In this document: positions 41,265 to 43,870 of the stretch, one piece after another | Layout: every line of letters starts with the position of its first letter | Numbering within the stretch: position 1 is the first letter of the stretch | Assembly: GCF_024346135.1 (NCBI RefSeq) | Contig: NZ_JAGQCJ010000002.1 | Coordinates: forward strand, 62,001 to 126,000 | Reading direction: 5' to 3' | DNA from: Cyanobium sp. CH-040 | Lineage (GTDB): Bacteria > Cyanobacteriota > Cyanobacteriia > PCC-6307 > Cyanobiaceae | DNA: 64,000 nucleotides | The notes under the pieces: model-generated | What the model was told of the DNA's origin: nothing | The model's input: the letters and a program-made list of their open reading frames with translations, nothing else | The model's database searches: none | Position numbers and translations under genes: made by a program

Positions 41265-42227
41265 ATGTTCCTGAGCGTCGTCATTCCCACCTACAACCGC
41301 CTGCCGATCCTGCGCCAGTGCCTTGAGGCGCTGGAGCGGCAGCAGCTGGTCGAACCGCTGCGGGACTTCGAGGTGGTGGTGGTGGATGACGGCTCCAGCG
41401 ACGACACGGTTGCCTGGATCGAGAGCCATGCCCGGCAGCTGCCCCATGTGCGCCTGATCCGCCAGCGGCACGGGGGCCCGGCCACGGGCCGCAACCGCGG
41501 TGTGGCCGCCGCCCGCGGTGAGGTGGTGGTGTTCATCGACAGCGACCTGGTGGTGCGGCCCGACTTCCTGGTCAGCCATGCCCGTGCCCTGGCCGGTGCA
41601 TGGCAGCGCCACGGCGATCGCCTCTGCTTCACCTACGGAGCGGTGATCAACACGGCGAACTTCGAGGATCCCACCTCCGAGCGCCACAAGCTGCGGGATC
41701 TCTCCTGGGCCTATTTCGCCACGGGCAATGTGGCCATCGAGCGCGCGTTGCTGGAGCGCGCCGGCCTCTTCGACACGGCCTTCCACCTCTACGGCTGGGA
41801 GGACCTGGAGCTGGGCGAGCGACTGCGGCGCCTCGGGGTGCGGCTCGTACGCTGCCCGGAGGCGGTGGGGTATCACTGGCATCCGGCCCTGACGGTCGCG
41901 CAGATCCCCGATCTCATCCGGGTGGAGCGGGAGCGGGCCCGGATGGCCCTGGTGTTCTTCCGCAAGCACCCCACCCGCCGGGTGCGCTTCATCATCCAGT
42001 ACACCTGGCTGCACCGCGTGCTGTGGGAGCTGCTCACGGCCGGCGGACTGATCAACGAACGCAGCCTGAGGCCGCTGCTGGCCTGGCTGATCCGTCACGG
42101 CAGGCCAGCCCTGGCCATGGAGCTGCTGCGCCTGCCCCTCAATCGCATCGGCGTGCGGGCTCTGTTCCGGGAGGCGCGCCAGCAACGTCTCGCGGCAGAC
42201 GGCCCGGTTGTGCAGACGCCGTTTTGA
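41265..42227 (+). CDS. glycosyltransferase family 2
   Basis: Predicted 320-residue GT-A-fold enzyme with [26 protein letters not shown] (nucleotide-sugar binding), [15 protein letters not shown] and FIDSDLVV (DxD metal site), then [16 protein letters not shown], the acceptor-side ED motif of the chondroitin-polymerase-like subgroup. It transfers a sugar from a nucleotide donor; acceptor unknown, likely envelope polysaccharide. The ATG 41265 is directly after a terminator, leaving no room for a normal promoter, so transcription may depend on read-through or a promoter within the terminator. Confidence 0.9.
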
Positions 42228-42233
42228 TAGGCT
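42228..42233 (+). promoter_or_regulatory. candidate -10 element TAGGCT for rpsB-tsf
   Basis: TAGGCT directly after the glycosyltransferase stop and 151 bases before the rpsB ATG; fits TAnnnT. A start near 42240 would give a leader of about 145 nucleotides that contains the predicted fold at 42265-42375. Confidence 0.4.
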
Positions 42234-42264
42234 AACCCGGTTCCCTCAAACCGCACACCTGCGC

Positions 42265-42375
42265 GTTTCGGGTGATCACGTCAATGGCCCCGTGGTCATG
42301 GGTGCCGGGACTGCTCCCGGTGTCTCCCCACACGGCCGCCGCGCGATCCCTGGCAGGTGGTGGCCAACCCGAAAC
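42265..42375 (+). ncRNA. predicted multi-branch structured leader RNA of rpsB
   Basis: A perfect 9-bp long-range helix (GTTTCGGGT at 42265-42273 with ACCCGAAAC at 42367-42375) encloses three hairpins: 42274-42280 with 42291-42297 (7 bp, one G-U), 42305-42310 with 42315-42320 (6 bp, CCGGGA/TCCCGG, four-base loop), and 42334-42340 with 42359-42365 (7 bp, one G-U). The closing helix ends 9 bases before the rpsB ATG. Hairpin 1 stacks directly on the closing helix and hairpin 3 is one base from it. The layout suggests a cis-acting regulator, for example feedback by ribosomal protein S2. Found by eye; no covariation evidence. Confidence 0.5.
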
Positions 42376-42384
42376 CCCACAACC

Positions 42385-43098
42385 ATGGCTGTCGTCACTC
42401 TCGCCGAAATGATGGAGGCGGGTGCCCACTTCGGGCATCAGACCCGTCGCTGGAACCCGAAGATGTCGCGCTACATCTACTGCGCGCGCAACGGCGTTCA
42501 CATCATCGATCTCGTGCAGACCGCCGTCTGCATGAACAACGCCTACAAATGGGTGCGCACTGCAGCCCGCAGCGGCAAGCGTTTCCTGTTCGTCGGCACC
42601 AAGAAGCAGGCATCCGAAGTGATCGCCCAGGAGGCCACCCGCTGCGGAGCCGCCTACGTGAATCAGCGCTGGCTGGGCGGCATGCTCACCAACTGGACCA
42701 CCATGCGCGCGCGCATCGAGCGTCTCAAGGACCTGGAGCGCATGGAGAGCTCCGGAGCCATCGCCATGCGCCCCAAGAAGGAGGCGGCCGTGCTGCGCCG
42801 TGAACTGGAGCGCCTCCAGAAGTACCTGGGCGGTCTCAAGAACATGCGCCGCCTGCCCGATGTGGTGGTGCTGGTGGACCAGCGCCGGGAGTCCAATGCC
42901 GTGCTCGAGGCCCGCAAGCTCGACATCCCCCTGGTCTCGATGCTCGACACCAACTGCGATCCCGACCTCTGCGATGTGCCGATTCCCTGCAACGATGACG
43001 CCGTCCGCTCCGTGCACCTGGTGCTGAGCCGTCTGGCCGACGCCATCAACGAAGGCCGCCATGGCTCCGGCGAGCCCACCGACAGCGACGAGGGCTGA
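42385..43098 (+). CDS. rpsB: 30S ribosomal protein S2
   Basis: Small-subunit protein at the mRNA exit region. The 237-residue protein has [65 protein letters not shown] and [18 protein letters not shown] 42385 gives the family-standard N-terminus; longer in-frame starts (from 42208) run through the structured leader. No Shine-Dalgarno sequence precedes the ATG (ACCCCACAACC). Confidence 0.98.
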
Positions 43099-43114
43099 GC
43101 CCTTCGCTCAAGGG

Positions 43115-43143
43115 AGCGCTGGGCGCCCATCCGCACCAGCGCT
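43115..43143 (+). promoter_or_regulatory. 8-bp hairpin in the rpsB-tsf spacer
   Basis: AGCGCTGG and CCAGCGCT form a perfect 8-bp stem around a 13-base loop that itself contains GGGCGCCC-like sequence. No T-tract follows, so it is not a simple terminator; it may be a processing or mRNA-stability element between the two cistrons. Confidence 0.45.
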
Positions 43144-43182
43144 GCCACCCTCTGCAGCCACCCTCTGCTGCCACCGTCTCCC
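43144..43182 (+). repeat. 13-bp pyrimidine-rich tandem repeat before tsf
   Basis: Three tandem 13-base units: GCCACCCTCTGCA, GCCACCCTCTGCT, GCCACCGTCTCCC. They are followed by more pyrimidines up to the tsf start at 43211, leaving an unstructured leader with no purine-rich ribosome-binding site. Confidence 0.7.
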
Positions 43183-43210
43183 TCTTCTCCGTCCCCAGAT
43201 TCCTCACCCC

Positions 43211-43870
43211 ATGGCTGAGATTTCAGCGAAGCTCGTCAAGACCCTGCGCGACAAGACCGGCGCCGGGATGATGGATTGCAAGAAGGCTCTCGCCGAGACC
43301 AACGGCGATACCGAAAAAGCGATCGAATGGCTGCGCCAGAAGGGCATCGCCAGCGCCGAGAAGAAGGCGGGCCGCACCGCCGCCGAAGGCGCCATCGGCT
43401 CCTACATTCACACCGGTGCCCGCGTGGGTGTTCTGGTCGAGGTGAACTGCGAGACCGATTTCGTGGCCCGCGGTGAGATCTTCCAGGAGCTGATCCGCAA
43501 CGTGGCGATGCAGATCGCAGCCTGTCCCTCCGTCGATTACGTGAAGGTCGAGGACATCCCGGCCGACGTGGCTGACCGCGAGAAGCAGATCGAGATGGGT
43601 CGTGACGACCTGGCCGGTAAGAAGGAGGAGATGAAGGAGAAGATCGTGGCCGGCCGCATCGGCAAGCGACTCAAGGAAATGGCCCTGATGGATCAGCCTT
43701 ACATCAAGGACAGCACCATCACCGTGTCTGAACTGGTGAAGCAGGTGGCCGGCAAGGTGGGCGAGAACGTGCAGGTGCGCCGTTTTGTGCGCTTCAACCT
43801 CGGCGAGGGCATCGAGGTGGAAACCGCCGACTTCGCGGCCGAGGTGGCCGCAATGAGCGGCGCCTCCTGA
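43211..43870 (+). CDS. tsf: translation elongation factor Ts
   Basis: Guanine nucleotide exchange factor for EF-Tu. The 219-residue protein has the N-terminal UBA-like domain ([20 protein letters not shown]), the TDFVAR motif ([14 protein letters not shown]) that inserts into EF-Tu, and the C-terminal part ([15 protein letters not shown]). The length matches the short, single-repeat cyanobacterial form. It follows rpsB after 112 bases, the usual order. Confidence 0.98.

Follow-up and report, generated by a model that had tools for sequence, protein, structure and literature searches.

A conserved pseudoknot in the rpsB leader of Cyanobium, the cyanobacterial version of a known ribosomal leader

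The window analysed here, a stretch of 64,000 nucleotides from Cyanobium sp. CH-040, contains the rpsB gene for ribosomal protein uS2, followed by tsf for elongation factor Ts. Judging from their spacing, the two genes presumably share an operon. The spacer between them (43099-43210, 112 nt) is C-rich, with no obvious Shine-Dalgarno sequence ahead of tsf. Homologues of rpsB were found in 140 of 149 related genomes, and in all 112 of those of good quality. In one genome of the same genus, rpsB lies in two adjoining pieces in different frames, covering residues 1-158 and 158-236 (G003:C13:38907-39613), the result of a frameshift or an assembly error; elsewhere, an rpsB match with an internal TAA (G020:C64:39724-40416) may merely include the stop codon of a shorter protein. 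The features of the locus are as follows.

42225..42233, + strand: extended -10 promoter element TGATAGGCT (TGnTAnnnT), recognised by comparison across leaders
42249..42255, + strand: conserved single-stranded 5' flank AACCGCA, with CCGCA in >90% of 148 picocyanobacterial leaders
42256..42262, + strand: 5' strand of P1, CACCTGC, covarying with and complementary to 42353-42359
42265..42273, + strand: 5' strand of the long (pseudoknot) helix, GTTTCGGGT, 9 bp, the J2-3 segment of Meyer et al.
42274..42277, + strand: 5' strand of P3, GATC, with complementarity above all shuffles
42278..42344, + strand: variable insert capping P3, containing the hairpin 42305-42310/42315-42320, the sole subclade-conserved one
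42345..42348, + strand: 3' strand of P3, GATC, pairing with 42274-42277
42353..42359, + strand: 3' strand of P1, GCAGGTG, pairing with CACCTGC
42360..42366, + strand: conserved loop 3, GTGGCCA (GAGGCnA in most relatives)
42367..42375, + strand: 3' strand of the long helix, ACCCGAAAC, pairing perfectly with GTTTCGGGT
42385..43098, + strand: rpsB, ribosomal protein uS2 (open reading frame with an ATG start and no Shine-Dalgarno sequence)
43211..43870, + strand: tsf, elongation factor Ts (open reading frame, identified from sequence)

Leaders of rpsB were drawn from the 149 related genomes, from 80 named contigs (all close to Cyanobium, Synechococcus, Vulcanococcus and Prochlorococcus) and from stretches belonging to more distant families of cyanobacteria. 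The start was located in 189 leaders, and 187 were scored, the two left out ending at contig ends. The scored set comprises 148 picocyanobacterial and 39 other cyanobacterial leaders; the collections overlap, leaving 165 distinct sequences. Two blocks, CCGCACACCTGnnGTTTCGGGTG and GGCAGGTGGAGGCnAACCCGAAAC, are strongly conserved, and the interval between them, from the long helix to P1, is anywhere between about 10 and about 140 nt long. Interleaved complementarity was seen in the 187 scored leaders, and on this comparative evidence the rpsB leader is a pseudoknot, its strands following in the order P1 5', long helix 5', P1 3', long helix 3'. P1 measures 6-9 bp across all 148 picocyanobacterial leaders. 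Loop 1, which separates P1 from the long helix, spans 0-3 nt in almost every leader and 2 nt here, the third loop is 7 nt here, and the variable P3 arm lies between the strands. L149, from a distant cyanobacterium, has enough space after P1 and ahead of the long helix for a hairpin (GCTGAGGCTTGGCTTCGGTC...) resembling a P2 arm, which is otherwise absent in cyanobacteria. In picocyanobacteria, 6-15 nt separate the end of the long helix from the start codon. Here, with the ATG at 42385, the distance is 9 nt, as the original prediction had it, and the tail, CCCACAACC, is indeed free of a Shine-Dalgarno sequence.

The pseudoknot probably lies at the very beginning of the transcript. A scan for consensus -35/-10 promoters found none, and the extended -10 element emerged by comparison only. 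At 42225-42233, TGATAGGCT overlaps the stop codon of an upstream glycosyltransferase-like open reading frame. TGnTAnnnT is present 5' of P1 in 148/148 picocyanobacterial leaders (about 5 expected) and in 34 of the 39 other cyanobacterial leaders (about 2 expected), and its distance to P1 is almost always 29-33 nt. From this conserved position, transcription would start near 42240, so that the whole pseudoknot would form the 5' end of the rpsB mRNA; such a start lies upstream, rather than downstream, of 42273, the end of the first long-helix strand. No mapped rpsB transcription starts were found in the literature for picocyanobacteria, and a search of 42150-42400 for a transcription terminator or attenuator found none.

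The original prediction, made from this one sequence, placed the element at 42265-42375 and drew the 9-bp helix 42265-42273/42367-42375 as closing three hairpins in a four-way junction, a closed fold that could gate translation. All of these helices can be drawn in the sequence, and the fold is close to its minimum-energy structure; RNAfold returns a fold of this kind. Its stability, however, is no better than that of shuffled sequence (z = -0.30; 75 of 200 shuffles equalled or exceeded it), and 15 of 500 dinucleotide shuffles contain a perfect helix of at least 9 bp with widely separated strands. One sequence is therefore not enough to decide the structure, and since the fold supported here is a pseudoknot, RNAfold cannot return it. 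Comparison among relatives does support the 9-bp helix itself as real: it is kept at 9 bp in 148/148 picocyanobacterial leaders, and the breakage in relatives that would have spoken against it was not seen. The same comparison makes it the second stem of an interleaved pseudoknot instead of the closing helix of a junction. P1, interleaved with it, lies partly outside the interval first reported, and the start of the element is better placed at about 42248 than at 42265.

The three inner hairpins fared unevenly, only the middle one being conserved, and that within a subclade. Hairpin 1 (42274-42280/42291-42297) takes up the 5' strand of P3, and it is broken in the closest relative, L002 (S2 98% identical), in which P3 pairing persists. 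Hairpin 2 (42305-42310/42315-42320) survives in L002, L008, L011 and L012, where compensating changes maintain it, and plausibly caps P3 in its subclade. Hairpin 3 (42334-42342/42357-42365) takes up the loop following P1 together with the 3' strand of P1, a strand that is complementary to its P1 partner in every scored relative. The region that the junction would enclose varies in length from about 10 to 140 nt. The four-way junction was accordingly rejected as a conserved structure, given the conservation of P1 and P3 and the conflicts with the hairpins, and a closed fold of this kind gating translation is very improbable.

Covariation was assessed in two ways. In an alignment of 26 sequences (A1), with 500 shuffles and with partners slid by 1-3 columns as controls, 100% of P1 cells were paired and 6 of the 7 P1 pairs showed two-sided changes; for the long helix the figures were 90.6% of cells and 5 of 9 pairs, and for P3 80.6% of cells and 4 of 5 pairs. 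None of the 500 shuffles matched the observed values, and slides of 1-3 columns abolished the signal. Since the scoring of the 187 leaders had used pairing to choose the registers, 144 leaders were, as a check, aligned with MAFFT blind to pairing and tested against an R-scape-like, tree-based null. Here P1 remained 98-100% canonical per pair. Four of the seven top-ranked column pairs were P1 pairs, and a fifth joined bases just inside P1. All-pairs E-values for single P1 pairs were about 1, and four P1 pairs reached significance (approximately 0.007-0.05, calculated as E/2080 x 15) only when the test was limited to the 15 proposed pairs. No long-helix pair was significant in this test on the 144 leaders, also among the 15 proposed pairs. 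P3, formed by the bases directly after GGGT and the bases ending about 4 before P1, showed complementarity exceeding that of all 1000 shuffles in both leader groups.

Covariation was thus found in P1 and P3 and, as the two-sided changes in A1, in the outer pairs of the long helix. P1 covaries strongly and P3 moderately, and the long helix is nearly invariant in its core, GGGU/ACCC, which hardly varies within cyanobacteria. The long helix is supported more by this invariance and by differences between phyla than by covariation; its complementarity is kept in the outlying leaders L145 (CTACGGGT/ACCCGTAG) and L138 (ATCGGGT/ACCCGAT). The very high sequence identity of the two blocks, with a promoter element just upstream, might also be expected of a DNA operator or promoter acting in place of an RNA, but the compensatory changes preserve pairing across tens of bases, between blocks whose spacing varies, and a DNA element is scarcely credible.

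An rpsB motif with a pseudoknot was published in 2009, and Cyanobacteria are among the hosts that its authors name (Meyer et al., 2009, PMC2704228), so the suggestion that this leader is a new candidate regulatory RNA does not hold. In cyanobacteria, the motif was described as having a variable P3 and a P2 that is absent or at most 3 bp (PMC2704228). The present leader agrees in its location upstream of rpsB (42385), in its P1 stem and variable P3, in the pairing of the segment between P2 and P3 (J2-3, GTTTCGGGT) with a 3' extension after P1 (ACCCGAAAC), and in the missing P2, for which a first loop of 0-3 nt leaves no room. It differs in the long helix, which is 9 bp here in contrast to the five base pairs predicted in that paper. 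On these features, the leader belongs to the Meyer et al. motif as its cyanobacterial lineage variant. A related report, covering two model cyanobacteria, likewise predicted a structured 5' UTR of rps2, the "rps2 leader" of cluster 394, and grouped it with ribosomal leaders; in the portions of that source available to us, this is a prediction only, without a pseudoknot model or picocyanobacteria (Voss et al., 2009, PMC2662882).

A covariance model built from cyanobacteria only (R1) matches a single site in this genome, the rpsB leader (8.1e-11; next best 2.2), and it has a match in 180 of 194 cyanobacteria. Outside this phylum, it matches Catenovulum (1.6e-5), E. coli (3.8e-5) and Aeromonas (1.3e-3), always just upstream of rpsB, and more weakly the rpsB leader of Sinorhizobium (E 0.024); a search with R1 of the rpsB leaders of Sphingomonas, Paracoccus, Methylobacterium and Bacillus found no match. 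The gammaproteobacterial leaders matched by R1 are those that Rfam calls t44 (RF00127) and rpsB (RF01815), and RF01815 is, judging by its name, probably the Meyer et al. motif. The part of the original prediction that saw a structured rpsB leader akin to the S2-controlled leader of E. coli is therefore borne out: the leader is conserved, and the model shows its homology with the gammaproteobacterial leaders. Like the gammaproteobacterial t44/tff leader, the cyanobacterial one has CACA before P1, P1 itself, GUGGAGGCnUAACCC after P1 and a GGGU/ACCC long-helix core, whereas t44/tff has its own P1 sequence, a shorter long helix (GGGGU/ACCCC in E. coli), a Shine-Dalgarno-like GAGG ahead of the start and an annotation as an sRNA gene.

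Both Rfam families as curated exclude the cyanobacterial leader. At the gathering score of 44 bits, RF00127 matched neither the window nor any of 99 cyanobacterial relatives, the best cyanobacterial score being 28.2 bits; at 40 bits, RF01815 likewise matched neither the window nor any of the 99, the best score being 28.7 bits at an rpsB leader. The comparison with Rfam proposed by the original prediction thus gave no match at gathering score in the window, and for the leader stretch itself a search admitting E-values as high as 5 returned chance matches only. Both models do give sub-threshold matches exactly at the rpsB leader in several cyanobacteria, and the two families look like parts of a single motif. 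Both are typed "Gene; sRNA" in Rfam despite being cis-acting leaders. Two further observations came from the Rfam searches: t44 (RF00127) also matches Thermotoga maritima among the controls, and L140 carries a glutamine riboswitch (RF01739) above cut-off at 399-455, near rpsB and on the opposite strand. Taken together, the leader is a genuine, conserved RNA element whose structure has been corrected here, and it is one lineage's variant of a ribosomal leader already known. What is modestly new is that picocyanobacterial rpsB leaders are without a Shine-Dalgarno sequence and that both Rfam families miss the cyanobacterial element (0/99 each).

The function of the homologous leader has been studied in E. 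coli. Excess S2, helped by S1, represses rpsB-tsf through the leader (Aseev, 2008, as summarised in a review, PMC10931766). According to the same review, the ribosome binding site lies outside the structure of the S2 operator. A search of the literature found no demonstration of S2 binding or regulation for any cyanobacterium. It is nevertheless likely, and we hold this with good confidence, that the region from about 42240 to 42384 is a cyanobacterial rpsB leader pseudoknot through which free S2 represses rpsB, and with it perhaps tsf. S2 binding, the direction of its effect and steric occlusion as the route are what we infer. Once S2 outnumbers 30S subunits, the free protein, perhaps joined by S1, would bind and stabilise the pseudoknot; the final helix of the fold, 9 nt ahead of the AUG, would then occupy the stretch that the 30S subunit must cover, and translation of rpsB and tsf would drop. 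While S2 is being taken into ribosomes, the leader would open. With 6-15 nt between the long helix and the start codon in picocyanobacteria, the folded leader should hinder loading of the 30S subunit; as the E. coli ribosome binding site lies outside the operator, steric occlusion may not be a shared mechanism.

The Shine-Dalgarno sequence divides the leaders. Scored for rpsB only, none of the 148 picocyanobacterial leaders has one between the long helix and the ATG, and 33 of the 39 other cyanobacterial leaders have one directly after the long helix. The last base of P1 and loop 3 together give GGAGG in most relatives, in 128 of the 148 picocyanobacterial leaders; 19, this genome included, have GGTGG. 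The same GGAGG is also conserved in lineages that have a Shine-Dalgarno sequence. A perfect GGAGG in most leaders that are otherwise devoid of a Shine-Dalgarno sequence, in a pseudoknot that by promoter inference stands at the very 5' end, might suggest a constitutive role, in which the same structure would protect the 5' end of the mRNA or dock the 30S subunit, with a ligand other than S2. Such a role is rather unlikely: in E. coli, S2 feedback acts through the homologous leader, the element occurs in this genome at rpsB and at no other gene, and GGAGG is kept even where a Shine-Dalgarno sequence exists and is GGTGG here.

A pseudoknot leader near the start codon, stabilised by a ribosomal protein, is also found at E. 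coli rpsO, the gene for S15. Gene, protein and sequence differ from those at rpsB, and the likeness drawn here is one of mode. By analogy, loop-3 GGAGG, about 25 nt before the start, might dock the 30S subunit in picocyanobacteria in place of a lost Shine-Dalgarno sequence, with S2 trapping the docked subunit, an S15-like entrapment evolved at rpsB. GGTGG in the 19 leaders argues against GGAGG as an essential docking site, and we consider entrapment of this kind decidedly improbable.

Repression by free S2 through the leader pseudoknot is thus the preferred reading. The S2 leader is near-universal in cyanobacteria, the abundant picocyanobacteria included, though current Rfam models miss it, and the corrected structure is now available as a testable model for the rpsB leader. 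Leaders with a Shine-Dalgarno sequence, as in most cyanobacteria, and leaders without one, as in picocyanobacteria, offer a natural comparison that could tell whether S2 control needs a Shine-Dalgarno sequence at all.
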